From: a virus | Virus record (IMG/VR): IMGVR_UViG_3300022871_000001 | Coordinates: 1-49,428 of that record | Direction: 5' to 3' (one strand) | DNA length: 49,428 bases | Shown here: positions 15,038 through 44,908 of the stretch, one piece after another | Numbering within the stretch: the stretch's first letter is position 1 | Layout: each line of letters starts with the position of its first letter | Notes under the pieces: model-generated | Told to the model about the DNA's origin: nothing | The model's input: only the letters and a program-made list of their open reading frames with translations | Databases searched by the model: none | Position numbers and translations under genes: made by a program

Positions 15038-15064
15038 AATTTATAATAAAAGGAAGAAAAAATC

Positions 15065-16291: not shown

Positions 16292-16310
16292 TAAATAAGA
16301 AGGTTAGATA

Positions 16311-18368: not shown

Positions 18369-18369
18369 A

Positions 18370-21714: not shown

Positions 21715-21717
21715 ACT

Positions 21718-23013
21718 ATGGCTTTAAATTTTCCTAAAACTAGAAAAGAAGTATACAACGGGATTACGACTGATTTTCAGACTGAAATTCCTGAATCAAA
21801 TCCTACACTAAAAAATAGCTGGTTAAGGGCTTTTTTAATGGCTCTCGCAGGAGCGATATTCGGCATATATGAACGACTAAAGGTTTTAAAAACTCAATTA
21901 TTCGCTCAAACTGCGTCAGATGATGATCTTTTAGCGATTGGTAATAAATGGATAGGGAACTATCTTGCAGCTACAATATCAACAGGATATGTTAGTTTTT
22001 CTGGAACAGTTAGTTCGATTATACCTGCAGCAACGCTTTTGCAAATTGATGGTTTACAATATAAAACATTATCAGAGGTAACTATTGCCTCTAATGTACA
22101 ATCTATAACAACTATTGCTTATGCCTCAAATATTGCAACTGTAACAGTAGCTAGTGCTCATAAATTAGCAACAGGAATGAGTGTAGTAATTTTTGGTGCT
22201 AGCCCAGCCGGCATAAATGGAACATTTATAATAACAGTTACCGGAGAAACAATTTTTACATATACAACAACTGAATCAGGCACAGGAAGTGCGACAGGTA
22301 CAAAAACATGCACAAGTGCATTTGTAAGTGTTCAAATAGAAAGTTTAGAAGTTGGTTTAGATAAAAATCAAGATCCAGGCGCTCAGATGTCTGTAGTAAC
22401 TGCAATCTCAGGCGTTAATACTGTATATGTTCAGTATTCTGAAATTGTCGGGGGTACAGATATTGAAACAGCAGAAAATTATAGAATAAGATTAAATTTT
22501 AGATTACAAAATCCAGTTGCACATTTTAACGATGCTGATATTATCTTAAATATTTTAAAATTAGGTATTGTTAATAGAATATTTGTTCAGGATGTAACAC
22601 CTGCACTAGGGCAGGTAACAATTTATAGTTTAAAAGAAAATAATGTTGTGCCTACCGCAACAGAATTAACATTAATTAAAAATCAGATATTAACTATTAA
22701 ACCAGCAAATACGCCCGATAGTGCAGTTTATGTTTTAACACCAACGCTTGTTCCCACAAATTTTACATTTACGTCAATTACACCTGATGCAAGCACTATG
22801 AGAACAGCTATTACTAATAGTTTGATAGCTTTTTTTGAAGATGATCCTGAAATTGCAACAGATATAACAGAAACGCAATACACAAATGCAATAATTAATA
22901 CAATAGATCAGACAACTGGTGCGGCATTAACAGATTATACTTTATCTGTTCCTAGCGCTGCAATTACAATCGCAACAGGCGAAATTGGAACATTGGGGAC
23001 GGTATCATTTTAA
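21718..23013 (+). CDS. Baseplate J-like protein (Mu gp47) with inserted beta domain
   Basis: This 431-residue protein has the J family layout: ASDDDLLAIGNKWIGNYLA near the N-terminus and TDIETAENYRIRLNFRLQNP in the middle, with a beta C-terminus. Residues about 125-200 look like an inserted small domain, with ITTIAYASNIATVTVASAHK, ATGMSVVIFGASPAGINGTF and TYTTTESGTGSATGT, resembling the FCCH-like repeats seen in phage structural proteins. The same type of domain occurs in the protein at 12340. Confidence 0.87.
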   Translation: MALNFPKTRKEVYNGITTDFQTEIPESNPTLKNSWLRAFLMALAGAIFGIYERLKVLKTQLFAQTASDDDLLAIGNKWIGNYLAATISTGYVSFSGTVSSIIPAATLLQIDGLQYKTLSEVTIASNVQSITTIAYASNIATVTVASAHKLATGMSVVIFGASPAGINGTFIITVTGETIFTYTTTESGTGSATGTKTCTSAFVSVQIESLEVGLDKNQDPGAQMSVVTAISGVNTVYVQYSEIVGGTDIETAENYRIRLNFRLQNPVAHFNDADIILNILKLGIVNRIFVQDVTPALGQVTIYSLKENNVVPTATELTLIKNQILTIKPANTPDSAVYVLTPTLVPTNFTFTSITPDASTMRTAITNSLIAFFEDDPEIATDITETQYTNAIINTIDQTTGAALTDYTLSVPSAAITIATGEIGTLGTVSF

Positions 23014-23030
23014 TAACATAAAGGATAATA

Positions 23031-23111
23031 ATGTATATATATAAAATCACAAATAAAATTAATAATAAAAAGTATATAGGTCTTAGAACTACCTCTAAGG
23101 AAGCTAAATGA
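23031..23111 (+). pseudogene. Remnant of a GIY-YIG homing endonuclease
   Basis: The 26-residue frame opens MYIYKITNKINNKKYIG, which is the N-terminal strand pair of GIY-YIG nucleases (IYKITN then KKYIG), and then ends after LRTTSKEAK. It has a good AAAGGATAAT site before the ATG, and its TGA overlaps the gp48-like start. All later motifs of the domain are missing, so it cannot be an active nuclease. It is likely the scar of a homing gene inserted between two baseplate genes. Confidence 0.7.
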
Positions 23112-23689
23112 AAACATTATCTGAAATAACTCAAAGTTTAAAAAATTATTTTGCTGAAGGTTTTTTACATAAAGCAATTAATATATCTAGTACAAACATA
23201 TATAAGATGTTTGCTGCTATTGCTCAAGTTTTTTATAGAGAGTCAAAAGCAGAAGCATATTTTAAAAGAGAGGTAAACCCTGAAACAACTTATGACCTGA
23301 TTTTAGACTGGGAAAAGGAAGTTAAAATACCTTGTGAATGTTTTACTACAGATGTTAGTATTGACCAGCGAAAAAAACAAGTTTTAGTAAAATTAACTGC
23401 GAACGTACAAATTGCGCAGGATTTTGTAGATTTGGCTAAAATATTAGGGGTTACAATTACGATGCGGGCTAAAAATGAGGGGGCAACACCATTTCCATTG
23501 TTATTGCCGTATTCGCTAGTTGATATATCTAATTTTTATGTAATAATTGTTGATATAGCAAATTGGAGTCCATCACAAGTTTTTCCTTTTTTATTACCGT
23601 ATCCGCTCGGGCAGGAACAATATAGTACTCAGATACAATGTTTATTTAATAAATTAAAACCAGCAAATTGTTTAATAGAATATATATAA
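23108..23689 (+). CDS. Tail protein, Mu gp48-like (DUF2313)
   Basis: This 193-residue protein has the gp48 pattern: LHKAINISSTNIYKMFAAIA at the N-terminus, then VNPETTYDLILDWEKEVKIP and CECFTTDVSIDQRKKQVLVK in the middle. It follows the J-like gene and precedes the fibre gene as in Mu. It should connect the baseplate to the tail fibres. Confidence 0.87.
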   Translation: MKTLSEITQSLKNYFAEGFLHKAINISSTNIYKMFAAIAQVFYRESKAEAYFKREVNPETTYDLILDWEKEVKIPCECFTTDVSIDQRKKQVLVKLTANVQIAQDFVDLAKILGVTITMRAKNEGATPFPLLLPYSLVDISNFYVIIVDIANWSPSQVFPFLLPYPLGQEQYSTQIQCLFNKLKPANCLIEYI

Positions 23690-23705
23690 AAAGGAAGGTA
23701 AATAT

Positions 23706-24719
23706 ATGATTTACGTCGTTGATAAAATTAATGGTATTGATTATGTACAGGATTATCAATATAACAGTGTAAAAAATAATGTATTAGATTCAGTCTTAAC
23801 AACGGGGCAAACACCGGACTCAGATACCGGGATATCTGACACAAATGTAAAACAACTTTCAACGGCTATTGCTATTCATGCCGCTGGGGGAAATTATTAT
23901 ATTGACAGTGGGCTTGCTGATGCGTATGTTTTAGGTGTTCAGACAATATCAGGCACCCCCATGGTTGCGCCTAATGTTTTTTTTAATGGTATGTCATGCA
24001 GGTTTATTGCAAATGTGTCAAATACTGGAACAAGTACGGTAAATGTTGCAAGTTTAGGAATAAAAACTATACGAAAAAATAATGGGACAGATATACTTGC
24101 AGCTGGAGATATTATTGCTGATTATTTATATACAATAATATATAATTCAGCAACTGGTTTTTTTGAGCTATCAAAAAATATTAGTGGCGATTACAGGATA
24201 GTAAATGGTAATCTGACTGTTGATAAAGCTATAACATCAACAGTGGGAGATATCACGACAACAACTGGTAATTTTGTAATAGGGACAGCTGGAAAAGGTA
24301 TAGACTTCTCAGGCGTAGGGACTGCGGCTAATATACTACATGATTATGAGGAAGGGGCTTGGACTCCAATACCATCAAGAACTACTGGGGGAGCTATTAC
24401 TGCAACAGTAACTACAACAGATTGTGTTTATACAAAGATAGGAAGAGAGGTTACCCTCTATTGCAGAATGTTTATATCCTCAGTCACAGCACAAGGAACT
24501 GGTGATAGTTTTATGTCAGGTTTACCTTTTGAAAATAGCTATAATCAGAATATGGTTGGAAGTTTATTTATTGGCTCTGCAATAACAGGTACTGCTCCAG
24601 TTTTATCTACAATTGCAAGTAACAAAATATATTTTTCTGACGATAGAGTAAATTTGTCTAATGGAGACTGGAAAGCTGGTACTATCGAATTTTCAATATC
24701 ATATATTACATCAACTTAA
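23706..24719 (+). CDS. Tail fibre protein
   Basis: This 337-residue protein begins with a baseplate-binding-like segment, then a central domain with ANVSNTGTSTVNVASLGIKT and a C-terminal beta domain introduced by ANILHDYEEGAWTP, a motif common at the receptor-binding end of phage fibres. A linker GDITTTTGNFVIGTAGKG precedes it. It is likely the host-recognition protein. The start has AAGGAAGG upstream. Confidence 0.8.
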   Translation: MIYVVDKINGIDYVQDYQYNSVKNNVLDSVLTTGQTPDSDTGISDTNVKQLSTAIAIHAAGGNYYIDSGLADAYVLGVQTISGTPMVAPNVFFNGMSCRFIANVSNTGTSTVNVASLGIKTIRKNNGTDILAAGDIIADYLYTIIYNSATGFFELSKNISGDYRIVNGNLTVDKAITSTVGDITTTTGNFVIGTAGKGIDFSGVGTAANILHDYEEGAWTPIPSRTTGGAITATVTTTDCVYTKIGREVTLYCRMFISSVTAQGTGDSFMSGLPFENSYNQNMVGSLFIGSAITGTAPVLSTIASNKIYFSDDRVNLSNGDWKAGTIEFSISYITST

Positions 24720-24737
24720 TCTTAAAGGATAAACACA

Positions 24738-24980
24738 ATGACGACACAAACAACATTTTATAAGGGCTTCATAGAAGAAACTGGAAGTTTCAATAGATGT
24801 CTTCTAATTTTAGAACTTGAAGATAATATAGTAATAAAACAAACACTACACAGACGAGTAATAAGTCCATTAGAAAATTATTCCGATGAAATACAAATCA
24901 TAAAAGATATATGTGATGATATGTTCACACCTGAAATAAAAGCAGAATATCAATTATTTTTAGATTCGATGGAGGTATAA
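24738..24980 (+). CDS. Small acidic protein after the fibre gene
   Basis: This 80-residue protein is unrecognised. It has a small beta start (TTFYKGFIEETGSFNRC) and an acidic helical end. Its position suggests a fibre accessory or fibre assembly role, which is inferred. The ribosome binding site of the next gene (GGAGG) lies in its last codons. Confidence 0.6.
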   Translation: MTTQTTFYKGFIEETGSFNRCLLILELEDNIVIKQTLHRRVISPLENYSDEIQIIKDICDDMFTPEIKAEYQLFLDSMEV

Positions 24981-25214
24981 ATGAAAACTGGTAAAATAAT
25001 AATAAATTCAGATATGGAATTATTTGAAGAAGAAATTGTCATCGAAGAAATTGACGGTTTAAATTACAGAGTTAAGAAATTAAACAAAATAACTCCTATA
25101 GATGATGTATCAGATAAATCAGATAAAGTTAAAAAGCTTTCTAATATTCTGAATACTAAGAAAATTAAAGATAAATATCAAGCGAAGCTAGATAAAACAA
25201 AAAAAGTTAAATAA
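24981..25214 (+). CDS. Small lysine-rich protein, unknown function
   Basis: This 77-residue protein follows its neighbour without a gap. The first half is acidic and beta-like, the second half is strongly basic and helical (KIKDKYQAKLDKTKKVK). No family is recognised. Confidence 0.55.
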   Translation: MKTGKIIINSDMELFEEEIVIEEIDGLNYRVKKLNKITPIDDVSDKSDKVKKLSNILNTKKIKDKYQAKLDKTKKVK

Positions 25215-25215
25215 A

Positions 25216-25377
25216 GGTATATATACGAGCGAATGGAATAAACTACCTCCTGTAGCTGCTACTGATACAATACAAAAAGATGGTTCATAGAAAACGCAAA
25301 TTGCAACATTCAATAACCCTGTTTGGGTTCAAAATCCGTTGCAAAATGGTTGTGATCTTGTTTTAGTTGAAAATTAA
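25216..25377 (+). pseudogene. Decayed virion-protein fragment with in-frame TAG
   Basis: The frame reads GIYTSEWNKLPPVAATDTI and onward, hits TAG at 25288-25290, and continues as QIATFNNPVWVQNPLQNGCD to TAA at 25375-25377. There is no start codon with a ribosome binding site. The residues look like a piece of a secreted or fibre-associated protein. It is either a relic or needs amber readthrough. Confidence 0.45.
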
Positions 25378-25417
25378 TTTTAACGTGCTATTGTATATAA
25401 AAGAGAAAGGCCTTAAA

Positions 25418-25744
25418 TTGAATTTAAATACTGGAAATAATTTTGATATTAAAAAAATAGGAGCTAGTTTGTTAATTCTTATTCTTGCAGGTATTTTTTC
25501 TTTTATCTGGAAACTAAACTCAAGCGATTCATTACAAACTTACAATGATATTGATTTTAAAGATAGATTAATATCAACAATCAATATAGTCTCGGATAAT
25601 AGGAAAATACAAGATAAGCGCTATATTGAATTAATAAAAATAGCTACAGAGACGCAGAGTAATGTAAAAACAATAAAAGAACAAATTAATAAATTATGTG
25701 AGAGAGAAAGCAGACTTAATGGTTTTTTAATTACGAAAGATTAA
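25418..25744 (+). CDS. Single-pass membrane protein of the lysis region (possible i-spanin)
   Basis: A TTG start at 25418 follows AAAGAGAAAGG with good spacing, which is better than the TTG at 25367. The product has about 108 residues: a short cytoplasmic start, one membrane segment (IGASLLILILAGIFSFIW) and a polar helical part. Its position before a small lipoprotein gene suggests the Rz/Rz1 spanin pair, but the helical part is short and no sequence proof is seen. Confidence 0.55.
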   Translation: MNLNTGNNFDIKKIGASLLILILAGIFSFIWKLNSSDSLQTYNDIDFKDRLISTINIVSDNRKIQDKRYIELIKIATETQSNVKTIKEQINKLCERESRLNGFLITKD

Positions 25745-25746
25745 AA

Positions 25747-25917
25747 ATGAAAACTATATTAATTTTATTATTCTTATTTTTATCATCTTGCCAAACTGTA
25801 AATTTTAAAGAATATACAGAAGACGGAAAATTGATAAAAGAATATAGCAGAACCGGGACTCCTAACTGGTCTGATAATAAGACAATTCCAGTCTCTTTTT
25901 CAGGAATAGGGGTATAA
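25747..25917 (+). CDS. Small lipoprotein (possible o-spanin)
   Basis: This 56-residue protein starts MKTILILLFLFLSSC, a signal peptide with the lipobox LSSC, so the cysteine at residue 15 should be lipidated. The mature 42 residues are polar with an YSRTGTPNW segment. A short outer-membrane lipoprotein directly after a single-pass membrane protein in a lysis cassette fits an Rz1-like o-spanin, and points to a Gram-negative host. Confidence 0.6.
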   Translation: MKTILILLFLFLSSCQTVNFKEYTEDGKLIKEYSRTGTPNWSDNKTIPVSFSGIGV

Positions 25918-25920
25918 AAA

Positions 25921-26313
25921 ATGAATACTGTATTAACAAAAGAACAATTAGAAAAGTCAAAACTAGAGATTAAAAAATATAATCTTGTACATAATAAACG
26001 TTTTTTTGAGTGTTCAGATAAGTTTATTATTAACTGCTTCAATGGTGCCGGAGCAGATGGAACAAATATTATCGCTAGAATATGTATAACAGAAATACTT
26101 AGTATGTTTATTACTGCGATACTGCTGCACGATTTCAGTTTCACATTAAAAGATGAAGAGTTTGATATTGTTAATCAAGATTTTAGAGAAAACATGGAAA
26201 AACTATTAGATGCAAAATCATCAAATATATTCTCTAAATCATGGAATAGATTTTTAAAAATTGCCGCGTTCGATATGGTAAATAAATTTGGTAATAAATG
26301 GGAGCTAATATGA
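25921..26313 (+). CDS. Conserved-type phage protein in lysis cassette, unknown function
   Basis: This 130-residue protein has the layout NCFNGAGADG, then ITEILSMFITAILLHDFSFT, then a helical C-terminus WNRFLKIAAFDMVNKFG. This NG-G then ITE then HD spacing resembles a family of small phage proteins of unknown role, many found near lysis genes. It sits where an endolysin would be expected, but it lacks any lysozyme, amidase or peptidase motif that I recognise. Confidence 0.6.
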   Translation: MNTVLTKEQLEKSKLEIKKYNLVHNKRFFECSDKFIINCFNGAGADGTNIIARICITEILSMFITAILLHDFSFTLKDEEFDIVNQDFRENMEKLLDAKSSNIFSKSWNRFLKIAAFDMVNKFGNKWELI

Positions 26314-26510
26314 ATGAATTACTTAAAAAACTAACTAATACAAAAACTATTATTGCAATAGCGTCATCGTTATTATTAATAGCGCAGACGTTAGGGTTGA
26401 AAATTGACAATGAAAAAGTAATGATTGTTGTTAATTTAGTGCTAACTATAGGCATTTTATTGGGAGTATTAAATAAATCAGGTATGAATACAACTAAAAT
26501 GGATAAATAA
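26310..26510 (+). CDS. Holin (phi LC3-like)
   Basis: The start at 26310 is supported by GGGAG six bases upstream, rather than the ATG at 26298 that forms part of that site. The product has 66 residues with two membrane segments (TIIAIASSLLLIAQTLG and VMIVVNLVLTIGILLGVL) separated by LKIDNEK, which matches the phi LC3 type of small holins. It should open the inner membrane at the end of infection. Confidence 0.8.
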   Translation: MNELLKKLTNTKTIIAIASSLLLIAQTLGLKIDNEKVMIVVNLVLTIGILLGVLNKSGMNTTKMDK

Positions 26511-26512
26511 TT

Positions 26513-26860
26513 ATGCTACATAAACTAATCAAATTCTATAATAAATATATTACTACATATATGCAGTTCAAAAAAGATAGTAAACATTTAGTATATCTCA
26601 ATGAGACTACACAAAATAAATATGAAAAAGTTGAGACATTATTATTAAAGAATGAGATAGATATTTTATGCGAAAATGATCTTGAAGAGTTGAGTAGAAG
26701 TACTCGTATAATAAGTTTATGTTTTACTGAACAAGAAGAAATGCAAGAAGCACTAACAATAAACATTGATTTTATATTAAAGAACAAATGGAAGTATAAG
26801 ATTGCATATTATACAATTGAAGCGCTCTGTATTTTAGGAATTACTAACAAAATTAAATAA
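26513..26860 (+). CDS. Protein after the holin, unknown function
   Basis: This 115-residue protein starts MLHKLIKFYNKYITTYMQ and is mostly helical and acidic. It is the last gene of the long plus-strand late block and lies just before the terminator at 26922. No family is recognised. Confidence 0.6.
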   Translation: MLHKLIKFYNKYITTYMQFKKDSKHLVYLNETTQNKYEKVETLLLKNEIDILCENDLEELSRSTRIISLCFTEQEEMQEALTINIDFILKNKWKYKIAYYTIEALCILGITNKIK

Positions 26861-26921
26861 TATACTCTGGAAGTCTATATAAATTAAGTTATATATAAAC
26901 TATTAGATTTAAGTATATTAT

Positions 26922-26950
26922 GGACTAGATTTTATGCTAGTCCTTTTTTT
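26922..26950 (+). terminator. Intrinsic terminator of the late operon
   Basis: GGACTAG at 26922-26928 pairs with CTAGTCC at 26937-26943 around an 8-base loop, followed by seven T bases. It separates the plus-strand late genes from the convergent minus-strand block. Confidence 0.85.
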
Positions 26951-26973
26951 ATGTTTAAACAATATTTTTATAA

Positions 26974-27546
26974 TTATTTCATATGACTGATCTTATCAAT
27001 GAATTCCTGTTCTTTTGTTAAAGCACTTTTCATATAATAATTATCTTCTAATCTCATACCCCAATTTTCGCAATAATATCCAGGCTCTACTGCAATTATC
27101 TCATTATCATAAGTATCATGTACTATATTTGTAATTCCGTGATTCAAACGATGATTACAATCCGGCAACACAGTATTCCATATCTTCTCTGCAGTATCTT
27201 CTAATAACGTTCTTTTTACTGTTTTTAAAAAGTTAAATTTTTCCCTATACTTTGCAGGAATAAATCTTCCGCAGTAGAGCATGCGTGTGATATCACTACA
27301 TTGATCGTTAATCTTAAAACCAAAGTCAATTAAAACTAGATCACCTTTCCTTAATTGTCTATTAGTCGCTGGTTCATTGTGTATTTCCCTAGTATTCTCG
27401 CCAAACGCTACTAAAGGATAGAAGGCAATATGGCCACTTCTGATAATAAAGTCTACAACATCAATTTCCCTTAGCCCTACGCATATAAAATCTTTTAATG
27501 CCGAGTAAATTTGTTCAGTAAAATCGAATACATCGTTAGTTTTCAT
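26974..27546 (-). CDS. Compact M24-family metallopeptidase
   Basis: This 190-residue protein has the complete active site of the M24 (methionine aminopeptidase / Xaa-Pro dipeptidase) fold: H56 in TREIHNEP, metal ligands D74 (LVLIDFGF), D85 (CSDITRML, eleven residues after D74 as in the family), H136 (LNHGI) with H143 seven residues later, E154 (IAVEPGYY) and E167 (MRLEDN). It is clearly shorter than the usual about 250 residues because the part between D85 and H136 is trimmed. It should remove N-terminal residues from peptides or be a binding-only derivative. It is the last gene of the minus-strand operon, with GAGGAGA before its start. Confidence 0.82.
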   Translation of the reverse strand: MKTNDVFDFTEQIYSALKDFICVGLREIDVVDFIIRSGHIAFYPLVAFGENTREIHNEPATNRQLRKGDLVLIDFGFKINDQCSDITRMLYCGRFIPAKYREKFNFLKTVKRTLLEDTAEKIWNTVLPDCNHRLNHGITNIVHDTYDNEIIAVEPGYYCENWGMRLEDNYYMKSALTKEQEFIDKISHMK

Positions 27547-27583
27547 AATTATCTCCTCTTATTTTACATTTAATCCTTGACAT

Positions 27584-27766
27584 TTAACTTATCATATTTA
27601 CTATTTCATCTGTAGTTTCTATAACATCAATATCTTCTACTATATTATTAGTAACTATTCTTATTGTTGTAAAAGTGTTCTTATAATTACGAAAGAAGTA
27701 TATTATATTTAGTTCATTGATCCTTAGATCACTGCCATTTGTTGTTTTTACATAAATAAAATTCAT
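27584..27766 (-). CDS. Small protein, unknown function
   Basis: The chosen start gives 60 residues (MNFIYVKTTNGSDLRINELN); it overlaps the TGA of the 20-residue frame upstream as ATGA. A GTG three codons earlier is less likely. The protein is beta-rich with an acidic end (DIDVIETTDEIVNMIS). No family is recognised. Confidence 0.6.
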   Translation of the reverse strand: MNFIYVKTTNGSDLRINELNIIYFFRNYKNTFTTIRIVTNNIVEDIDVIETTDEIVNMIS

Positions 27767-27825
27767 AATAACCACTTATATTTATTATTTTTTTTTGCTC
27801 TATTAATATATTTTTTAAGCTTCAT
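27763..27825 (-). CDS. Very small basic peptide
   Basis: A 20-residue frame (MKLKKYINRAKKNNKYKWLL) has a strong AAAGGAGGAG site and overlaps the next gene as ATGA. It is the first frame after the minus-strand promoter at 27878-27906. It may be a true peptide or a leader that couples translation. Confidence 0.5.
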   Translation of the reverse strand: MKLKKYINRAKKNNKYKWLL

Positions 27826-27877
27826 TATTTTCTCCTCCTTTATATTTTAATTATATTTCTTTCTCTTTATATAATAT

Positions 27878-27906
27878 ATTATAACATATACATCACATTT
27901 TGTCAA
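27878..27906 (-). promoter_or_regulatory. Promoter of the shared early family
   Basis: On the minus strand CTATTGACA, a 17-bp spacer and TATAAT occur. It should drive the genes 27825 to 26974, including the M24 peptidase. Confidence 0.8.
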
Positions 27907-27923
27907 TAGCAGTTTTAATTCTT

Positions 27924-28190
27924 TTACTTTTTTATTTCTTCTCTAATCTTATTTACTATTGCACTATATTCTGATCTAGCATCATTTATTTTTTTAACTA
28001 GTTCAGCAGTAAATGCTTCATCTTCTAATCCTTTTGATATATCTAGTGTATTGCTCTTCCCTTTATGATAATCTTCTGAACTTGTTGCCCCCCATGTGCC
28101 ATATTTTGCTGTGAATCCTCTCGCATATAATATCAAAACTAAATTTTTTATAATGCTTTTAAGTTCTGCTAATCTTTTAAAACTATTCAT
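27924..28190 (-). CDS. Small phage protein, unknown function
   Basis: This 88-residue protein is helical at both ends with a central glycine-rich piece (GFTAKYGTWGATSSEDYHKG). Its leader region (28199-28273) is the inverted copy of the leader at 31231-31305. It follows rha by about 80 bp. No function can be assigned. Confidence 0.6.
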   Translation of the reverse strand: MNSFKRLAELKSIIKNLVLILYARGFTAKYGTWGATSSEDYHKGKSNTLDISKGLEDEAFTAELVKKINDARSEYSAIVNKIREEIKK

Positions 28191-28198
28191 TTTTATTA

Positions 28199-28273
28199 CT
28201 TTCTTAGTGTTAATGACTTTGTTAATAACTCTATATTTTGTGCCTAGTGTGCCTGTTAATAACTTTCACTATA
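28199..28273 (-). repeat. 75-bp inverted repeat, left arm
   Basis: This arm matches the reverse complement of 31231-31305 with one mismatch. It contains GTTATTAACA, GTTATTAACAAAG and CATTAACAC words, and GGCACACTAGGCACA, so it may hold operators. It lies between rha and the gene at 27924. Confidence 0.9.
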
Positions 28274-28973
28274 TATTTAATATGTTTTTAATTTTGTCTA
28301 GAAGGTATATTTGTCCTTTGCCGGTAATTAGATATGTTGTAACTAATAAATCGCCCTTAATAGAAGTTAAAACTGTTTCTTTAATTTCGAATATGCCCAT
28401 ATTTATATATCTTTGAAACGGAGAATTTTTAGATCTACCGGCTTTTATCAAAAATCCATTTTTGCGCAGTAGGTTGAATAGTTTATTACGACCTATTTTT
28501 ATGCCATAGTTATTTAACACTTTTGCATAATCACAAACCGGTATCGATTCTGAGGAGTTCGCTACACTTTTACCGAAGTTTGAAAAAGGTTTATCAAGTT
28601 TTAATTGTTCTGATTTTCTTTCATTTAATTCTACTATATCTACTAATGCTAATAGAGCTTCTTTGTACGTTGCAGGCAGCTTTGGCATATTTTGATTTTC
28701 AAGTTCTTCCCAGCGTGATAAAACTATATCTCTTAATTTTGTTGAATATCCTGTCAATAAAATCATTAATTCATGGTACGGTAAAAGATATTGCTTTTGG
28801 AATCTTCCACAACTGTCACTATAGATCTCCTCAAAAGTGAGGTAACCTTTTTTAAGATCTTTTAACATTTTTTCAATGTCTCTAAGTACATTGTCATGTC
28901 TCTTCCCTGTTTCTTTTGCAATTTCTCTACTGCTCATCGTCACTTTATTGTCCCTAACTTTTAAATTATTCAT
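28269..28973 (-). CDS. rha: Rha-family regulator with KilAC-like C-terminal domain
   Basis: The N-terminal about 90 residues are a Rha domain (VTMSSREIAKETGKRHDNVL, then FQKQYLLPYHELMILLTGYS). The C-terminal part (VCDYAKVLNNYGIKIGRNKL, LLRKNGFLIKAGRS, then a stretch ending in LDKIKNIL) matches the KilAC/ANT domain of antirepressors. The Rha plus ANT combination is typical of phage regulators that interfere with repressors or host functions. A relic of its middle part lies at 31186-31243. The 234-residue length fits the family. Confidence 0.88.
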   Translation of the reverse strand: MNNLKVRDNKVTMSSREIAKETGKRHDNVLRDIEKMLKDLKKGYLTFEEIYSDSCGRFQKQYLLPYHELMILLTGYSTKLRDIVLSRWEELENQNMPKLPATYKEALLALVDIVELNERKSEQLKLDKPFSNFGKSVANSSESIPVCDYAKVLNNYGIKIGRNKLFNLLRKNGFLIKAGRSKNSPFQRYINMGIFEIKETVLTSIKGDLLVTTYLITGKGQIYLLDKIKNILNI

Positions 28974-28976
28974 TTG

Positions 28977-29255
28977 TTAACTCTCCTCTATCTCATTTAA
29001 TAAATTAATATCTCTTTTTGCACGTTCTATAATTGATATTCTTTTTATTTCTCTACATGTAGCTCCAGTTTGTTGTTCTGCTGCTTCATAGCATTTACTT
29101 ATATCGCAAAAACAGTCCTCACAGTCAAATTCAGCTAGAAGTAGGTCTAGTGCCATATTTCTATATTCAATTTCATTTGTTAATATATCAATATGTTCAA
29201 AAAGAGCTTTGATTTGATTAGATATAATTTCTAATTGTTCTTTATCGTGTTGCAT
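28977..29255 (-). CDS. Small cysteine-rich protein, unknown function
   Basis: This 92-residue protein is a helical N-terminus followed by FDCEDCFCDISKC and a later TGATC, five cysteines that could bind a metal. It lies four bases before rha and is probably co-transcribed with it. No family is recognised. Confidence 0.6.
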   Translation of the reverse strand: MQHDKEQLEIISNQIKALFEHIDILTNEIEYRNMALDLLLAEFDCEDCFCDISKCYEAAEQQTGATCREIKRISIIERAKRDINLLNEIEES

Positions 29256-29264
29256 TTTTAAATC

Positions 29265-29513
29265 CTAAATTAATCTTAAAAATTTTAATATTTTTTGTAC
29301 TAATGTTAATTCTATCTTTAACTGTTTTTTTAATGTTTTTATTCTTGCCTCACAATTTGTAATTTTATTTAACATGATATATATCGTATATTTTGCTTCA
29401 TCTTTTGGAATAATCCTTATTCCAGAATTATCTATTTCATAAATTAGATTTTTAAATTCAACTACATAATCTTCTAAAATTTCTATTTCGTCTTTTATTG
29501 TAATATCATCCAT
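29265..29513 (-). CDS. Small helical protein, unknown function
   Basis: This 82-residue protein (MDDITIKDEIEILEDYVVEF at its start) is mainly helical and charged, with a hydrophobic end. It has an AGGAAT site. It lies second in the operon that contains rha. No function can be assigned. Confidence 0.6.
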   Translation of the reverse strand: MDDITIKDEIEILEDYVVEFKNLIYEIDNSGIRIIPKDEAKYTIYIMLNKITNCEARIKTLKKQLKIELTLVQKILKFLRLI

Positions 29514-29515
29514 TT

Positions 29516-29587
29516 TTAAAATTCCTTTATTTTATAACTTTTTATATAAATTTCGCTATAATCTTTTATTATTTTATAACCCTCCAT
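29516..29587 (-). CDS. Possible 23-residue peptide
   Basis: The frame MEGYKIIKDYSEIYIKSYKI ends two bases before the start of the next gene, so it may be a coupled leader. The ribosome binding site is weak. It starts just downstream of the promoter at 29598-29625. Confidence 0.3.
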   Translation of the reverse strand: MEGYKIIKDYSEIYIKSYKIKEF

Positions 29588-29597
29588 TTTGATCTTA

Positions 29598-29625
29598 ATT
29601 ATAAGCCCATATCGTTATTTGTCAA
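29598..29625 (-). promoter_or_regulatory. Promoter of the shared early family
   Basis: On the minus strand TTGACA and TATAAT are separated by 16 bp. The -35 box is inside the last codons (PIDK) of the gene at 29615-29782. It should drive 29513 to 28269, including rha. Confidence 0.8.
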
Positions 29626-29782
29626 TAGGCTTTTTTAAATATTTTGAATATATTTCTCCAAAATGTTTTGCTAAACCTTTTTGTATCCAGTACATTGCTG
29701 CTTGTTCATCACTTACTTCTAGCCTCCTAGCGTACTTGTGAATCCATCTCATTTGTATCATATTGTATTTTAATGTTGTCAT
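29615..29782 (-). CDS. Small basic protein, unknown function
   Basis: This 55-residue frame (MTTLKYNMIQMRWIHKYARR at its start) has a very strong GGAGGGAT site. It has a helical pattern (EQAAMYWIQKGLAKHFGEIY) like short helix-turn-helix or coiled proteins. It is preceded by the promoter at 29811-29838. The end of the gene doubles as the -35 box of the next promoter. Confidence 0.65.
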   Translation of the reverse strand: MTTLKYNMIQMRWIHKYARRLEVSDEQAAMYWIQKGLAKHFGEIYSKYLKKPIDK

Positions 29783-29810
29783 CTCTAATCCCTCCTGCTT
29801 TATACTAGTA

Positions 29811-29838
29811 ATTGTACGCCTAAATAGCTGTTTGTCAA
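29811..29838 (-). promoter_or_regulatory. Promoter of the shared early family
   Basis: On the minus strand CTATTGACA, a 16-bp spacer and TACAAT occur. Upstream of it are A-tracts (CTTAAAAAACTTAAAAAAAG) spaced about one helical turn, like an UP element. It serves the gene at 29782. Confidence 0.7.
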
Positions 29839-29893
29839 TAGGCGAAACAAGCTTTTTTTAAGTTTTTTAAGTTTTTTTTATAACTAAAATTGA

Positions 29894-29965
29894 CGGGCGT
29901 TAATAGAGTCGAACTATCAATAACAGAGATAAATCTGTCGTACTGCCGTAGTACTTTGAACGCCC
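29894..29965 (-). tRNA. tRNA-like gene with non-standard anticodon loop
   Basis: On the minus strand, GGGCGTT (29959-29965) pairs with AACGCCC (29895-29901) to form a 7-bp acceptor stem, with G as the discriminator base. The T-arm is canonical (GATAG, loop TTCGACT, CTATT). The D-arm is GTACT/AGTAC with a GG-containing loop. The anticodon arm ACAG/CTGT leaves the 8-base loop ATTTATCT; pairing one more A-T leaves six. Neither is the normal seven, so the anticodon (TTA or TAT are possible) is uncertain. The CCA end is not encoded. It may be a working phage tRNA, a decaying one, or a mimic. Confidence 0.7.
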
Positions 29966-29997
29966 ATAAAATGTTTTTTATCTCTTTCATATTAGTA

Positions 29998-30026
29998 ATT
30001 ATATATAGTAACATTAACTTTGTCAA
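29998..30026 (-). promoter_or_regulatory. Promoter before the tRNA-like gene
   Basis: On the minus strand TTGACA, 17 bp and TATAAT precede the tRNA-like gene by about 33 bp. The sequence upstream (CCTATTGACA side, A-tracts at 30037-30060) is a near copy of that at 29833-29870, so the promoter module is duplicated on each side of the tRNA. Confidence 0.8.
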
Positions 30027-30039
30027 TAGGCGAATTAAT

Positions 30040-31139
30040 TTTTTTTTAAGTTTTTTTTAAGTTTATTTATTATGATTTGATTATCTAAATCTAAAAACAC
30101 AATAGACGCGTCTTAGAATGCAAAAGATATAAGACCCGATACAGTTATCACAAATCAATACAATCAAAAGCACATATAACAGTATGATCAAATTTAACCC
30201 TATTTTAACTTATATATTGGATTGGTAAATAACATTCCACCTAGTTAACCATATCAGTTCGCTTTTTAACTCTTACTTTTAATATCAAAATAATTATTTA
30301 AAAAACATGTAAAAAATCTTATTCCTGACTGTCTAGATAAAATATCTTTAATATCTTACTTATATTTATTATGTTCATTGTGTCGATGTCCGGTCGATGT
30401 GTTGATTATTTCTTTATCATTCTTTTTTAAACAGCGATAGGATCTGTTATTGCTTTAGACATAATAATTACTTTCTATCTTTATTATTAATGTCAAATAT
30501 AATAATAAAATAAGGGAGGTCAATAATATTTTTAGATTTTGACCCCTTCTTTTATATATGTTATTAGAATAATAATATATATTCTTGTTAGTGTCCGATT
30601 TAAAAAACGACGAGGTGTAACTTATTGATTGCTAAGTACTTATAAGAAAAATCCGCTGTCCGGTCGCTGTCCGAACGCTTGTTTTAATTAGTTGTAAGTT
30701 ACTAATAATAAGCTAGTTGCCTTATGCAATCCGCTGTCCACTGACCCTTTTTTTTTGACCTGCAATTTTTACCCATTTTTGATGATTATATTGATCTTTT
30801 AAAGTTCGTTGTTCAAACACTTGTTTTAATTAGTTGTAAGTTGTTAATTTATAATATGTTATCTTATGTAGTTCGCTGTCCAGTCGCTGTCCGATTTTAA
30901 AAAATAGAGTTTATAAATAGCTTATGATTAATATGTTATAAACTAATTTCGCTGTCCACTACTTTTTGCTAAAATTTCAATACAATTCTGATTTGTTAGA
31001 GATCTATATAGATTGATAGAACGTACATCGAAGCATCGACACGTCGACACATCTACAGAATATCGACACATCTACCTATTGTTTTGATTCATGTTTGGCA
31101 AGAAATTAAAGATTTTATCAAAATAACTAAAAACTGCTA
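30040..31139. other. Non-coding, iteron-rich region, probable replication origin
   Basis: No credible gene occurs in this 1.1-kb stretch. It holds at least six exact copies of CGCTGTCC (30654, 30665, 30732, 30874, 30885, 30950), several pairs spaced 11 bp apart, with variants CGATGTCC (30384) and GTGTCCGATT (30591). Two longer repeats share TTGTTTTAATTAGTTGTAAG (30680 and 30820). A second word, CGACACATCTAC, occurs twice near 31045 and 31065. The reverse complement GGACAGCG is repeated inside the initiator gene at 36.4 kb. This is the make-up of a phage origin bound by its own initiator. Confidence 0.65.
30516..30600 (-). pseudogene. Decayed inverted fragment of the initiator gene
   Basis: Read on the minus strand, this stretch begins AATCGGACACTAACAAGAATA, which is identical to about 36545-36565 of the initiator gene, and after a variable piece continues with GGGTCAAAA as at 36599. 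In translation it keeps KSDTNKN and later GQNL. It is therefore a broken, inverted duplicate of part of the initiator gene. Confidence 0.6.
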
Positions 31140-31167
31140 TTGACAAATTTACTTTTTGTAGTACACT
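31140..31167 (+). promoter_or_regulatory. First rightward early promoter
   Basis: CTATTGACA, a 16-bp spacer and TACACT precede the leader that leads into the rightward early genes. The -10 is the weakest of the family, which suggests it may need activation or be regulated. Confidence 0.65.
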
Positions 31168-31185
31168 TATCTAACAAAGGGAAAA

Positions 31186-31248
31186 ATGTTAAAAAATCTT
31201 AAAAAAGGTAACACAACTTTTAGGGATACCTATAGTGACAGTTATTAA
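31186..31248 (+). pseudogene. Relic of rha acting as a possible 20-residue leader
   Basis: The frame MLKNLKKGNTTFRDTYSDSY has AAAGGGAAA before its ATG. Positions 31186-31243 match the rha gene (28868 down to 28811) without gaps with about a dozen differences; rha reads MLKDLKKGYLTFEEIYSDS there. After TATAGTGACAGTT it jumps to sequence found downstream of rha. A deletion between two similar TATAGTGA words explains it. Confidence 0.7.
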
Positions 31249-31305
31249 CAGGCACACTAGGCACAAAATATAGAGTTATTAACAAAGTCATTAACACTAA
31301 GAAAG
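31231..31305 (+). repeat. 75-bp inverted repeat, right arm
   Basis: This arm is the reverse complement of 28199-28273 with one mismatch. It forms the untranslated leader of the gene at 31315, as the left arm does for the gene at 28190. It carries GTTATTAACA and CATTAACAC words that may be operators. Confidence 0.9.
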
Positions 31306-31314
31306 GCAAATAAA

Positions 31315-31503
31315 ATGAAACAGGGATATGCAGCATTATCAGCACGACAGCATCTAATTCAAAGATCAGTTAACCGGATTAAAAAAGAATCAAAAAATCA
31401 TTTAAGTTATGGAGATGATATTGATGATCAAAAAACGTTATTATATATGCAATCTGTTAAAGATATATTAGAAGAATTACAGGAAATAATAGATATAAAA
31501 TAA
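31315..31503 (+). CDS. Small charged protein, unknown function
   Basis: This 62-residue protein (MKQGYAALSARQHLIQRSVN at its start) has a helical second half that reappears in the frame at 31868-31996. It is the first full rightward early gene. The ribosome binding site AAGAAAGG is moderate. No family is recognised. Confidence 0.6.
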   Translation: MKQGYAALSARQHLIQRSVNRIKKESKNHLSYGDDIDDQKTLLYMQSVKDILEELQEIIDIK

Positions 31504-31606
31504 TATAAAAAACTTTCAAAAAACTTCTTTTAACTATTGACAAATTGCATTAAGTGCATATAATGTATAATAGAAAGAGAGGTAAATGAAATGAAAAATT
31601 TAACAA
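31384..31606 (+). repeat. Duplicated cassette, copy 1
   Basis: These 223 bp recur at 31877-32099 with one difference seen. The unit spans the 3' half of one small gene, a full promoter and the start of the next gene, so recombination or copying has moved a promoter plus gene boundary. Confidence 0.93.
31537..31564 (+). promoter_or_regulatory. Promoter of the shared early family
   Basis: TTGACA, 16 bp and TATAAT. Phased A-tracts lie just upstream (AAAAAACTTTCAAAAAACTTC). It serves the gene at 31591. Confidence 0.85.
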
Positions 31607-31878
31607 ATAAGTTAGTAGATCAAGGATATAAATTAGAAGTTAATTATAAACTTAATTTTCAAAAAAGGAATTTAGAAATGAAAACTACAAACAGTGAATT
31701 TTTAATGAATAAGGTTATAAGATTAACCGGTCACACAAAAGAACAAATTATGAATGATTATTATAATTCTTATAGAGTTTCAGATTTTATAAAAAGTTTG
31801 GATGGAGATGATATAAATAGTGCTAAAATTACAAGCACTTTGAGAAATTTATATAAAAAATTAAGTAATGAATCTTAA
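31591..31878 (+). CDS. Small protein, unknown function
   Basis: This 95-residue protein shares its first residues MKNLT and its promoter with the gene at 32084 because of the cassette duplication. The rest (VIRLTGHTKEQIMNDYYNSY) is helical. Its end overlaps the start of the repeated frame at 31868. No function is recognised. Confidence 0.6.
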   Translation: MKNLTNKLVDQGYKLEVNYKLNFQKRNLEMKTTNSEFLMNKVIRLTGHTKEQIMNDYYNSYRVSDFIKSLDGDDINSAKITSTLRNLYKKLSNES

Positions 31879-31996
31879 AGAATCAAAAAATCATTTAAGT
31901 TATGGAGATGATATTGATGATCAAAAAACGTTATTATATATGCAATCTGTTAAAGATATATTAGAAGAATTACAGGAAATAATAGATATAAAATAA
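31868..31996 (+). CDS. Truncated paralogue of the 31315 product
   Basis: The frame is MNLK followed by ESKNHLSYGDDIDDQKTLLY and onward, identical to the last 38 residues of the 31315 product. The start lies inside the preceding gene (AGTAATGAATC). It is the coding part of the duplicated cassette and may be a harmless passenger. Confidence 0.5.
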   Translation: MNLKESKNHLSYGDDIDDQKTLLYMQSVKDILEELQEIIDIK

Positions 31997-32099
31997 TATA
32001 AAAAACTTTCAAAAAACTTCTTTTAACTATTGACAAATTGCATTAAGTGCGTATAATGTATAATAGAAAGAGAGGTAAATGAAATGAAAAATTTAACAA
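31877..32099 (+). repeat. Duplicated cassette, copy 2
   Basis: This is the second copy of 31384-31606, offset by 493 bp in the same orientation. The one visible difference is GCGTA in place of GCATA in the promoter spacer. Confidence 0.93.
32030..32057 (+). promoter_or_regulatory. Promoter of the shared early family (second cassette copy)
   Basis: TTGACA, 16 bp and TATAAT, duplicated from 31537-31564. It serves the gene at 32084. Confidence 0.85.
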
Positions 32100-32251
32100 T
32101 AAAAGAAAAAAAAGTTATGTTGCAGGCCTTAGAACTATTAAATAGATTTACAAAATGTGAAGATCTAAACAAGCAGTATGAAGCAATATTATCAAAGCTT
32201 ATAAGAATTGTAAAAACAGATGATGAAACAGAGTCCGAAATTTGGTTATAA
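32084..32251 (+). CDS. Small helical protein, unknown function
   Basis: This 55-residue protein (MKNLTIKEKKVMLQALELLN at its start) has a good GAGAGG site copied with the cassette. It is helical and charged. No family is recognised. Confidence 0.6.
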   Translation: MKNLTIKEKKVMLQALELLNRFTKCEDLNKQYEAILSKLIRIVKTDDETESEIWL

Positions 32252-32266
32252 AAAGGATATAAAGAA

Positions 32267-32524
32267 ATGCACGAATTAACTATATATATTAAGAAAAAGT
32301 TATTGCAAGAAATTGTTTTGACTGATATCTATATGTCAGATATTATTGAAACAAAATTAGATGATGTTGTAATGTTCGATTGTCTTGATGCTAAAATTAA
32401 TATTTACAGTGGGGCAGATGGTAACATAAAACACACAAAACCACTGGACAAAGATATATTTTTTGAGAATTACTATGAACAAATAGAGACACAAATATTA
32501 GATGAGCTAGGTTTATATTTATAA
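32267..32524 (+). CDS. Small acidic protein, unknown function
   Basis: This 85-residue protein has an alternating strand and helix pattern (MHELTIYIKKKLLQEIVL at its start) and an acidic character. It lies directly before the recombination genes. No family is recognised. Confidence 0.6.
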   Translation: MHELTIYIKKKLLQEIVLTDIYMSDIIETKLDDVVMFDCLDAKINIYSGADGNIKHTKPLDKDIFFENYYEQIETQILDELGLYL

Positions 32525-32542
32525 AAATAAGAGGCAAATAAA

Positions 32543-33145
32543 ATGGAAAAATCAGAAACAATTAATAAATTAGCAGTAAGCTTATGTAAGGCACAGGAAC
32601 AAATGGGCGGGGCAAATAAGAATGCAACAAATCCATTTTTTAAAAGCCAGTACTCAGATTTAACAGAAGTAATTCAAACAATTAAAAGTTGTTTACATAA
32701 AAATGGATTATCAATTATACAGGCGCCGGTAAGTAGCGAAAAAAGTATAGGCGTTGAAACTATATTACTACATGAATCAGGTGAGTATATTAGTAGTTCT
32801 TTCACATTGCCGATGATCAAAATGGATCCTCAGCAAGCCGGCTCTGCTATCACTTACGCACGTCGTTATGCATTAAAAAGTTGGATGTTAATTCCTGATG
32901 TTGATGATGACGCACAAAGTTGTATGCAAAATAAAAATGTTAAACAAAACAACTATAGTAATACTCAATCCGATAGTAAAATTTTACCTATTAGTGACTC
33001 AATTAAGAATAGGATTAAACTTGCTAATGACTTAAATGGATTAACTACAATATATCATCAACTCAAAGATAATAATTCAATAGATCAAGCTGAGTTAAAT
33101 TCATTACTATCAAATAGAAAGAAAGTATTAAATGAAAATAAGTGA
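32543..33145 (+). CDS. erf: ERF-family single-strand annealing protein
   Basis: The N-terminal about 130 residues carry the ERF signature: MGGANKNATNPFFKSQYSDL, then IIQAPVSSEKSIGVETIL and the motif AGSAITYARRYALKSWMLIP. It should anneal single-stranded DNA and pair with the exonuclease encoded just downstream. The C-terminal part is polar and variable. Its last codons overlap the small membrane protein gene at 33132. Confidence 0.9.
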   Translation: MEKSETINKLAVSLCKAQEQMGGANKNATNPFFKSQYSDLTEVIQTIKSCLHKNGLSIIQAPVSSEKSIGVETILLHESGEYISSSFTLPMIKMDPQQAGSAITYARRYALKSWMLIPDVDDDAQSCMQNKNVKQNNYSNTQSDSKILPISDSIKNRIKLANDLNGLTTIYHQLKDNNSIDQAELNSLLSNRKKVLNENK

Positions 33146-33252: not shown

Positions 33253-33846
33253 ATGCAGATAATACGAGATGTAGAACAGGGATCAGAAAAATGGTTTAAA
33301 TTGCGTGAGTTACGCATGACTGCTTCACATGCTCAAAGTATTGCTGCAGCAGGTAAGGGCCTAGATACATATATAAGGACTAGAATTCAAAACTATAAAT
33401 TAGGACAAGGATCTCCTATTTTCATTAATGATGCGATTGAAAATGGTATTAAGTTAGAGCCAGAGGCGCGCTCAATGTATGAAATAACTAAAGGAATAGA
33501 AACACGGCAGGTTGGCTTTGTAATATATAACGATTATGTAGGTTGTTCGCCTGATATGTTGATTTGTAAAAAGGGACTAGGTGAAATAAAATGTCCTACT
33601 GACCGCGTATTTTTACGATATCTAAAAGATAAAATAATAAATACAAAATATCTATGGCAAATGCAAATGCAAATGATGATCTGCGAGCGTAGCTGGTGCG
33701 ACTATATAGTTTACAATCCACATTTTTTAGAAAACATTATTGTAAAGCGCGTATATGCGGATACGGCAATGTTTCAAAAGTTAAAAGCAGGGTTAGTAAT
33801 AGGTACAGAACTAATTAAAGAATTACTAGAAGGAGGTGAAAAATGA
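33253..33846 (+). CDS. YqaJ-like viral exonuclease
   Basis: This 197-residue protein has the YqaJ/lambda-exonuclease layout: QGSEKWFKLRELRMTASHA at the start, the acidic residue in VGCSPDMLI, then LGEIKCP (the E-x-K motif) and YLWQMQMQM. It should digest one strand of double-stranded DNA and supply single strands to the ERF protein, forming a Red-like recombination pair. Confidence 0.92.
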   Translation: MQIIRDVEQGSEKWFKLRELRMTASHAQSIAAAGKGLDTYIRTRIQNYKLGQGSPIFINDAIENGIKLEPEARSMYEITKGIETRQVGFVIYNDYVGCSPDMLICKKGLGEIKCPTDRVFLRYLKDKIINTKYLWQMQMQMMICERSWCDYIVYNPHFLENIIVKRVYADTAMFQKLKAGLVIGTELIKELLEGGEK

Positions 33847-33978
33847 ATATAATATTAGTATTAGTAGGAACAATTATATTGATAATGATGATAATGATGA
33901 TAATCACGGGGATATATTTATCAACTATATCAGACGAAATAGATAGAGAATATAAGAAACAAAAGGAATTTGAAGAAA
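33831..33978 (+). repeat. Duplicated membrane-peptide segment, copy 1
   Basis: These 148 bp are identical by eye to 34870-35017. They begin at the ribosome binding site and end in the coding sequence of the membrane peptide. Confidence 0.93.
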
Positions 33979-34001
33979 CAATAAAAAGAGGGGGAACTTA
34001 A
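33843..34001 (+). CDS. Small membrane protein (copy 1)
   Basis: This 52-residue protein has one N-terminal membrane segment (MNIILVLVGTIILIMMIMMI) and a charged tail. The first 45 residues are identical to the protein at 34882; the last few differ. It has an AGGAGGTG site. Confidence 0.7.
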   Translation: MNIILVLVGTIILIMMIMMIITGIYLSTISDEIDREYKKQKEFEETIKRGGT

Positions 34002-34003
34002 TA

Positions 34004-34885
34004 ATGAATAGTATCGTAAAAGTAGACGCAAAAGACTTTGGATTAGAAGAGAACAAAGCTCAGCAGATAGCAATAATGTTTGATCCGATGTTGAATAAAA
34101 TGGTAGAGCTAGAAAAAGAATATAACGCGCTAGCTAAAATTGATATTTCAGAAAAAAAATGTCAGTGGGCTAAGGATTTAAGATTACAATATGTTAAAGT
34201 AAGGACAGGCACAGCTAAAATTCATAAAGAGCTAAAACAATTCTATTTACAGGGGGGTAGATTTGTTGACGGCTGGAAAAATGCGCAATTGATGGCTTCC
34301 GGAACAATAGAAAATAAACTTAAAGACATAGAAGATCATTATGTTAATATTGAAAAAGAAAAAATACAAAAGGTTGAGGATGAAAGAACCGTTGAATTAT
34401 TAAAATATGGTAGTGAAATAATGCCGAAACAGTTAGGTAATATGCCAGAAGCAGTATTTCAAAATTATTTAACAGGAGTAAAAACTGCTTATGAATTAAA
34501 AATAGCCGCAGAGGAAAAAGCTGAAGATGAAAGAATAAAATTAGAACAACAAAAAATAGCAGAAGAAAAAGCTTTGCGTGCAGAGAACGAAAGGTTAAAA
34601 GAGCAGGCAAAGGCAGATGCAATAATACGTGAGAAGGAACGTATAAAATTTGAGGCAAAGGCAAAAGAGCAGGCAAGGGCAGAATTAGATCGTAAAATAC
34701 AGGAGGAAGAAAGACAGGAAAAGACAAGATTAAATTCACGCGAGGATTTAGTCAAATTTAAAGATTTTAAAACAAATATATTATCGTTAATAAAAGAATA
34801 TGATAATTTTACTGATCAAAGATGTGCTGATAGTTTTAATTATATCAAGGATTTTATAACCGATTATTTAGGAGGTGAAAAATGA
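34004..34885 (+). CDS. Coiled-coil phage protein of the recombination region
   Basis: This 293-residue protein has a helical N-terminus with a segment recurrent in phages (KVRTGTAKIHKELKQFYLQG, then GRFVDGWKNAQLMASG) and a long central charged coiled coil at residues about 165-245. It resembles a family of phage proteins of unknown role that often lie next to recombination genes (DUF1351-like). It lies between the two copies of the small membrane gene. Confidence 0.65.
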   Translation: MNSIVKVDAKDFGLEENKAQQIAIMFDPMLNKMVELEKEYNALAKIDISEKKCQWAKDLRLQYVKVRTGTAKIHKELKQFYLQGGRFVDGWKNAQLMASGTIENKLKDIEDHYVNIEKEKIQKVEDERTVELLKYGSEIMPKQLGNMPEAVFQNYLTGVKTAYELKIAAEEKAEDERIKLEQQKIAEEKALRAENERLKEQAKADAIIREKERIKFEAKAKEQARAELDRKIQEEERQEKTRLNSREDLVKFKDFKTNILSLIKEYDNFTDQRCADSFNYIKDFITDYLGGEK

Positions 34886-35017
34886 ATATAATATTAGTAT
34901 TAGTAGGAACAATTATATTGATAATGATGATAATGATGATAATCACGGGGATATATTTATCAACTATATCAGACGAAATAGATAGAGAATATAAGAAACA
35001 AAAGGAATTTGAAGAAA
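34870..35017 (+). repeat. Duplicated membrane-peptide segment, copy 2
   Basis: This is the second copy of 33831-33978, offset by 1,039 bp in the same orientation, identical by eye. Confidence 0.93.
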
Positions 35018-35049
35018 GACTAGAAAAAGGTAAAATTAATAATGAATGA
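34882..35049 (+). CDS. Small membrane protein (copy 2)
   Basis: This 55-residue protein is the duplicate of the one at 33843 and differs only in the last about ten residues (RLEKGKINNE). Its start overlaps the TGA of the coiled-coil gene. A 17-codon frame (35042-35095) follows and is too short to call. Confidence 0.7.
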   Translation: MNIILVLVGTIILIMMIMMIITGIYLSTISDEIDREYKKQKEFEERLEKGKINNE

Positions 35050-35996: not shown

Positions 35997-36929
35997 ATGC
36001 AAAATGGATTTATAAAAAATTTTAGAGCTGTACTAGACAATGCAGTATGTTGCAAGGATACAGATTATTTTGCTGTGTGGAATTATCTTCTTCTTAATGC
36101 TACATATAAAAATAAGTTTGCAATATTGGCAGGCCAAAAAATACTACTAAAACCGGGTGAAATTATCACCGGAAGATCATCAATTTCAAAATTTTGGAAT
36201 ATTTCACATTCTAAAGTTGAGCGCATATTAACTACACTTGAAAAAGATGGACAAATCAGTCAAAAAACATCCAGTAGTGGGCGCTTAATCACTATAACAA
36301 ACTGGTCAATATATCAGATAAAAGATAAAAGCCCTGAACAGCAAAATAATATTATAAATAAAACAGTACCAAGCACTTATGATATCAAAAATAAAAAATC
36401 AGACAGCGACCGGACAGCGAGTGGACAGCGGAAGACAGTAGACATCGGACAGCGAGTGGATAGCGGAAGCAATTGTGATATAAACACTTATGACTTAGAT
36501 ACACAACAAATCGGACAGCGAATGGACAACCCTATTTTAGCAAAATCGGACACTAACAAGAATAAAGAAAGTAATATAAATATTACTAATAATATAAAGG
36601 GTCAAAACTTAGAATATATAAAAATAGTAAATAACTTTATCGAGAAGAAACTTACAGACGAAACATTTAAAAATAGTCTTTATCTTAAAAATACCGATGT
36701 ACAGGCATGGGTCTTAGAAATCGATAGGTTAGTAAGACTAGACAAACACACGCAAGACACTATAATCGAAGTTTTAGAGTTTTCTCTGTACAATCCTTTC
36801 TGGTCTAATCAGATTGTATCACTGTTAAATATACGCAAAAAAAGCAAAAGAAACGGATTATCCAAATTTGAAAACTGTAGATTAAGCTTAGAGACAGAAA
36901 AAAATTATAAACTAAAAAATAGGAGGTAA
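35997..36929 (+). CDS. Replication initiator with N-terminal winged helix
   Basis: This 310-residue protein begins QNGFIKNFRAVLDNAVCCKD and has a winged-helix-like segment (IITGRSSISKFWNISHSKVE, then RILTTLEKDGQISQKTSSSG), as in phage O-type initiators. Residues about 133-190 are the iteron-encoded part (SGQRKTVDIGQRVDSG, QQIGQRMDN). The C-terminus is helical. It likely opens the origin and recruits a helicase or its loader. Having iterons within its own gene is the lambda O arrangement. Confidence 0.78.
   Translation: MQNGFIKNFRAVLDNAVCCKDTDYFAVWNYLLLNATYKNKFAILAGQKILLKPGEIITGRSSISKFWNISHSKVERILTTLEKDGQISQKTSSSGRLITITNWSIYQIKDKSPEQQNNIINKTVPSTYDIKNKKSDSDRTASGQRKTVDIGQRVDSGSNCDINTYDLDTQQIGQRMDNPILAKSDTNKNKESNINITNNIKGQNLEYIKIVNNFIEKKLTDETFKNSLYLKNTDVQAWVLEIDRLVRLDKHTQDTIIEVLEFSLYNPFWSNQIVSLLNIRKKSKRNGLSKFENCRLSLETEKNYKLKNRR
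36402..36566 (+). promoter_or_regulatory. Iteron cluster inside the initiator gene
   Basis: GGACAGCG-type words occur at 36402, 36412, 36423, 36447, 36458 (GGATAGCG) and 36513, many about 11 bp apart and so on one face of the helix. The same word in the opposite orientation fills the non-coding region at 30.4-31.0 kb. This is a probable initiator-binding site and a candidate origin. Confidence 0.7.
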
Positions 36930-44883: not shown

Positions 44884-44908
44884 TATAAGTAAAGAGGAGG
44901 GATTTATA

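Follow-up and report, generated by a model that had tools for sequence, protein, structure and literature searches.

Why do two divergent genes of a phage, 3 kb apart, start behind the same leader, and does this leader place both under common control? The window analysed here is the whole of IMG/VR record IMGVR_UViG_3300022871_000001 (49,428 nt, 30% G+C), which is a tailed phage marked by its terminase, portal, protease, capsid and baseplate genes; ERF, YqaJ-type nuclease and DnaD-like genes come after the strand switch. The map is circular, because the record ends share an exact 127-base overlap and are crossed by L009, an independent contig of a different sample that runs from 48995-49421 into 189-18084. 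The length of the exact overlap implies an assembly with k=127.

Two copies of one leader and a scrap of rha

The 75-nt inverted repeat of the preliminary description was confirmed: except for one mismatch, at 31239, the segment 31231-31305 is the reverse complement of 28199-28273. In self-BLAST the homology was longer than first stated, covering 28186-28273 and 31231-31319 (89-nt alignment, 94% identity, one gap, E = 3e-32) and reaching both ATG codons. Within the surrounding 6 kb, the longest exact inverted repeat measured at least 39 nt, compared with 12-16 nt in 30 first-order Markov simulations; together with the E value, this excluded a chance origin of the arms. The arm sequence occurs only twice in the genome. 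On the left it fills the whole interval between the stop codon of rha (TAG, 28271-28269) and the next start codon, at 28190; on the right it directly precedes the start codon at 31315 (Table 1).

The neighbouring rha gene encodes a Rha-KilAC antirepressor, its product matching PF09669 (E=1.5e-14) and PF03374 (E=4e-20), both over the Pfam cut-off. The fragment of this gene that had been noticed beside the right arm was confirmed by an ungapped alignment of the scrap to 28872-28811, in which 53 of 62 positions were identical (85%, E = 4e-11). The word TATAGTGA was found at both candidate junction points (28266-28273 and 28816-28823, minus strand) and at 31231 on the plus strand. Read in the mRNA sense, the junction region was CTATAGTGACAGTTGTGG in rha, ATATAGTGAAAGTTATTAACAGG in the left leader and CTATAGTGACAGTTATTAACAGG in the right arm, where the sequence matched rha until the C at 31239 and the leader from after AGTT. 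Thus, the sole arm mismatch was the base that comes from rha at the TATAGTGAcAGTT junction. This points to an inverted copy followed by an internal deletion and agrees with the earlier proposal that copying of the rha end and its leader, with a deletion at TATAGTGA, is the simplest history. About 550 bp would have been lost from the inverted copy between two TATAGTGAnAGTT words, and the scar fits what is expected of such a loss, while one template-switching event skipping the same ~550 bp would produce an identical sequence. Inverted duplications by template switching or fold-back are described as ODIRA (PMC4689423). As in ODIRA, the inverted copy was joined at short homologies and flanks an iteron (origin-like) region; in contrast, only 84-140 nt were copied here. 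This fossil is unusually readable, since the source, the copy, the junction and the decayed passenger of a control element copied to a new operon are all visible.

Table 1. Features of the duplicated leader and its surroundings, in window coordinates
Feature	Position	Strand	Remarks
88-aa gene	27924-28190	-	after left arm; end of rha operon
Left arm	28190-28273	-	spacer from rha stop to 88-aa gene; leader of that gene
rha	28269-28973	-	Rha N-terminal plus KilAC antirepressor gene; source of scrap
11-bp iteron CGCTGTCCGAT cluster	30384-30960	+	about 8 copies; noncoding; between the arms
Promoter-like TTGACA-16-TACACT	31140-31167	+	CTATTGACAAA family of the phage; box at 31137
rha scrap	31182-31243	+	codons around 35-55; both ends truncated; 13-nt overlap with right arm at junction
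20-codon ORF MLKNLKKGNTTFRDTYSDSY	31186-31248	+	rha frame; behind AAAGGG and TTGACA promoter
Right arm	31231-31314	+	inverted copy; leader of 62-aa gene
GTTATTAACA site 1	31241-31250	+	left-arm partner 28254-28263
GTTATTAACA site 2	31275-31284	+	left-arm partner 28220-28229
GTCATTAACA site 3	31287-31296	+	left-arm partner 28208-28217; one mismatch to GTTATTAACA
62-aa gene	31315-31503	+	after right arm; first of rightward operon
11-bp iteron CGCTGTCCGAT cluster	36398-36555	-	7 copies inside DnaD-like helicase-loader gene; opposite orientation

Unequal decay and a single orientation

The two parts of the copied segment have aged differently. Outside the junction, 9 of 49 nt had changed in the scrap and 0 of 62 in the leader (Fisher p=0.0004). 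If both were copied together, the leader must have been selected or refreshed from the other arm, and the unequal decay serves as an internal control, setting the leader against its surroundings. It was missed in the preliminary description, as were the in-frame 20-codon ORF behind a promoter and the many other promoter or leader duplications of this phage. In the explanation that we favour, an inverted copy of the rha end and the 78-bp spacer behind it would have been placed at the head of the rightward early operon. Of the copied rha, the greater part would then have been lost between the two TATAGTGAnAGTT words, leaving the promoter, a 58-bp rha scrap, the leader and the 62-aa gene, and selection, possibly aided by conversion between the arms, would have held the leader identical during the decay of the scrap. 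In support of this, the copy stops at a start codon on either side.

The difference between 85% identity in the scrap and 100% in the leader, and a scrap that kept the rha frame without indels, would also be expected if the right side had once been a full, diverged rha-leader unit, for example from a related phage, and had either served as template for the left leader or had only its leader renewed by conversion. However, a phage with such an arrangement was not found in the collections searched and the left copy is the intact one, which makes this order of events unlikely.

Conversion between the arms could also have kept them identical without selection, and template switching is known to make inverted arms homogeneous (PMC8604942). 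The leader could accordingly have arisen passively, as one among many short duplications that template switching or annealing recombination produced, with arms homogenised and devoid of function. This is consistent with the adjoining genes for an ERF annealing protein and a YqaJ-type nuclease, and with several further duplications, both direct and inverted. A direct one (31384-31610 and 31877-32102, 99%) comprises the last part of the 62-aa gene, the beginning of the gene that follows and a promoter, and seems to have given a second small gene its own promoter. Others join 44625-44912 to 48167-48451 (96%), 33831-34009 to 34870-35047 (95.5%) and, in inverted orientation, 29567-29655 to 38968-38879 (82%); one dispersed pair lies at 482-607 and 48036-48161, and several dispersed duplications contain CTATTGACAAA promoters. 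Several of them also carrying promoters, these duplications need not be passive themselves. In addition, the conserved tract of the arms is bounded by start codons and the junction, where a functional leader would be expected to end, and we consider a functionless by-product somewhat doubtful.

Near-perfect 75-nt arms in inverted orientation had also suggested that recombination between them flips the 3 kb in between, switching promoter orientation. As the arms are themselves leaders, such an inversion would also swap the promoters between the genes. In contrast, a contig from another sample (L005) that crosses both arms showed the same orientation: it matched 17993-31510 with one difference (18120), being identical from 18121 to 31510, and its end fell 127 bases inside the 223-bp duplication at 31384, exactly where an assembly with k=127 is expected to stop. 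This k exceeds the 89-nt arms; contigs should therefore break there if a sizeable fraction were inverted, and both assemblies, from which rather than from reads this is judged, were unbroken. Moreover, no invertase was seen in the scanned genes, among the matches listed. With two assemblies in one orientation and continuous through both arms, we consider an invertible segment very improbable.

Shared sites, promoters and the candidate regulator

Exact GTTATTAACA occurs twice per arm and is absent from the rest of the genome. The two divergent operons share a multi-site element with three sites per arm, of which the exact ones are confined to the arms. Three sites within 60 nt, with up to one mismatch, appeared in 4 of 200 Markov sequences of window length; the cluster by itself is therefore weak and only suggestive. 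The TTAACA repeats of the arms resemble the known boxes of the regulators PhoP, ArcA and DnaA.

The genome contains 14 CTATTGACAAA boxes with up to one mismatch, 13 of them followed by a -10 box and one (20879) without it. Since the box at 31137 is upstream of the right arm, this arm should be in the rightward 5′ UTR, and the left arm, between rha and the 88-aa gene, is located downstream of the leftward boxes at 29628, 29841 and 30029. Site 1 begins 74 nt past the end (31167) of the nearest promoter of the family, and the TTAACA-18-TATAGA inside the arm is a poor promoter candidate. As both arms are apparently inside transcripts, a protein bound to them would block transcription downstream, or act on the mRNA near the ribosome site, and not on the promoter itself.

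Such positions raised the question of whether the arms act as RNA, through a common mRNA leader structure or a leader peptide controlling translation of both genes. Each arm has a promoter upstream and stops at a ribosome site, and the right transcript includes the 20-codon upstream ORF. However, the folding of the arms was weak and unremarkable (z -1.8 and -0.45), and there was no Rfam match. In addition, the six codons of the ORF that differ from rha before the junction all alter the amino acid (6/6 nonsynonymous, alignment compared by eye), so the ORF gave no sign of peptide conservation. An action as RNA is thus decidedly unlikely.

Instead, we propose that the leader would be a cis-regulatory element with three TTATTAACA-type sites, through which one protein would act on two genes: that of 88 aa, which closes the rha operon, and the one that opens the rightward operon. 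The best guess for this protein would be Rha-KilAC, the sole recognised transcription regulator in the scanned genes, among the matches listed. No repressor was found among 45 small proteins compared with Pfam and PHROGs, among the families listed (best 25 of 54 for PHROGs). To our knowledge, it is not established for this family that Rha-KilAC acts on target DNA via such an operator. The products of the two target genes were modelled from single sequences, mostly as long helices: a two-helix hairpin was predicted for the 62-aa protein, and the 88-aa protein was helical at both ends. Relatives of the former were not found in phage and plasmid records, and those of the latter belonged to the same phage only (viral contigs, phage and plasmid records).

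The earlier suggestion that both arms may answer to the same regulator stood as far as the leaders of the divergent genes are identical and their exact sites unique in the genome; common regulation is what we infer from these. Altogether, the inverted leader duplication with its gene scrap is real; judging from the sequence, it is most likely a shared cis-regulatory element, and a regulatory function is plausible. The joint reading, in which an inverted rha-leader copy underwent a deletion and the duplicated leader would serve as a cis-regulatory element for two divergent transcripts, appears about as probable as its opposite. That the phage rewires its early genes by short leader cassettes, the inverted copy around the iteron-rich origin region having brought a further operon under one common downstream operator that Rha-KilAC reads, is quite unlikely. 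If the shared sites were functional, they would offer a specific, testable DNA target for the Rha-KilAC antirepressor. Duplication of promoters or leaders is a known kind of change in phages, and this locus is a clear but fairly ordinary example.

Paired operators of divergent phage operons are exemplified by lambda OL/OR. As in lambda, the same multi-site element is placed ahead of the left and right early transcripts. Unlike lambda, the sites appear to lie downstream of the recognisable promoter and not in it, the left copy lies between the last genes of an operon, and neither a CI/Cro-like repressor nor an integrase was recognised in the scanned genes, among the matches listed. In Cluster K mycobacteriophages, the short SAS and ESAS repeats are located directly upstream of gene starts and thought to be regulatory; about half have inverted-repeat parts, SAS being a 13-bp motif present at many genes to which ESAS adds 17-bp repeats (PMC3203893). 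The element described here is likewise repeated directly upstream of gene starts, but it is a single 75-89-nt leader with just two copies, at divergent genes and with a visible copying scar. The 13-bp GGGATAGGAGCCC motif of Cluster K was absent from the arm sequence.

The region between the arms and relatives of the phage

The segment between the arms had been described as containing a tRNA and an origin. ARAGORN found no tRNA in the window and Rfam gave no match of any kind in 27000-33000, despite a cloverleaf-like fold at 29895-29970 (minus strand, z -3.5) with an 8-bp acceptor-like stem and a T-arm-like TTCGACT, just after the leftward promoter at 30029. In contrast, the origin label gained support from the 11-bp iterons, which are clustered between the arms and recur inside the DnaD-like loader gene. 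Some are arranged as head-to-tail pairs and triples, and a 22-nt exact stretch (30580-30601) is common to both clusters. The CGCTGTCCGAT iterons are likely origin or initiator-binding sites.

The ancestral state was searched for in viral contigs, phage and plasmid records and genome contigs, using the Rha, 88-aa, terminase, PhoH and capsid proteins and exact and spaced arm patterns as queries. Neither the ancestral arrangement nor a leader conserved over evolutionary distance was found in these collections. The search recovered the same phage in a second sample, the distant L007, L010 and L013 through capsid or terminase, and a more distant Rha homologue of 32% identity (L004). L010, whose structural genes reach 64% identity, was the closest distinct phage to include an early region; this region was without a Rha match, either arm or a TTGACA-family promoter, and thus gave no evidence on the ancestral state.

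Several further elements were observed. A phage gene at 26974-27546 (minus strand) encodes an M24 metallopeptidase-like domain. A 60-bp tandem array spans the record ends (1-487 and 49286-49428); between L009 and the window, identity was ~92% in this array and 99.4% in the main segment. Finally, the early region of L010 carries an array of 12/18-bp repeats (L012:8269-8587).
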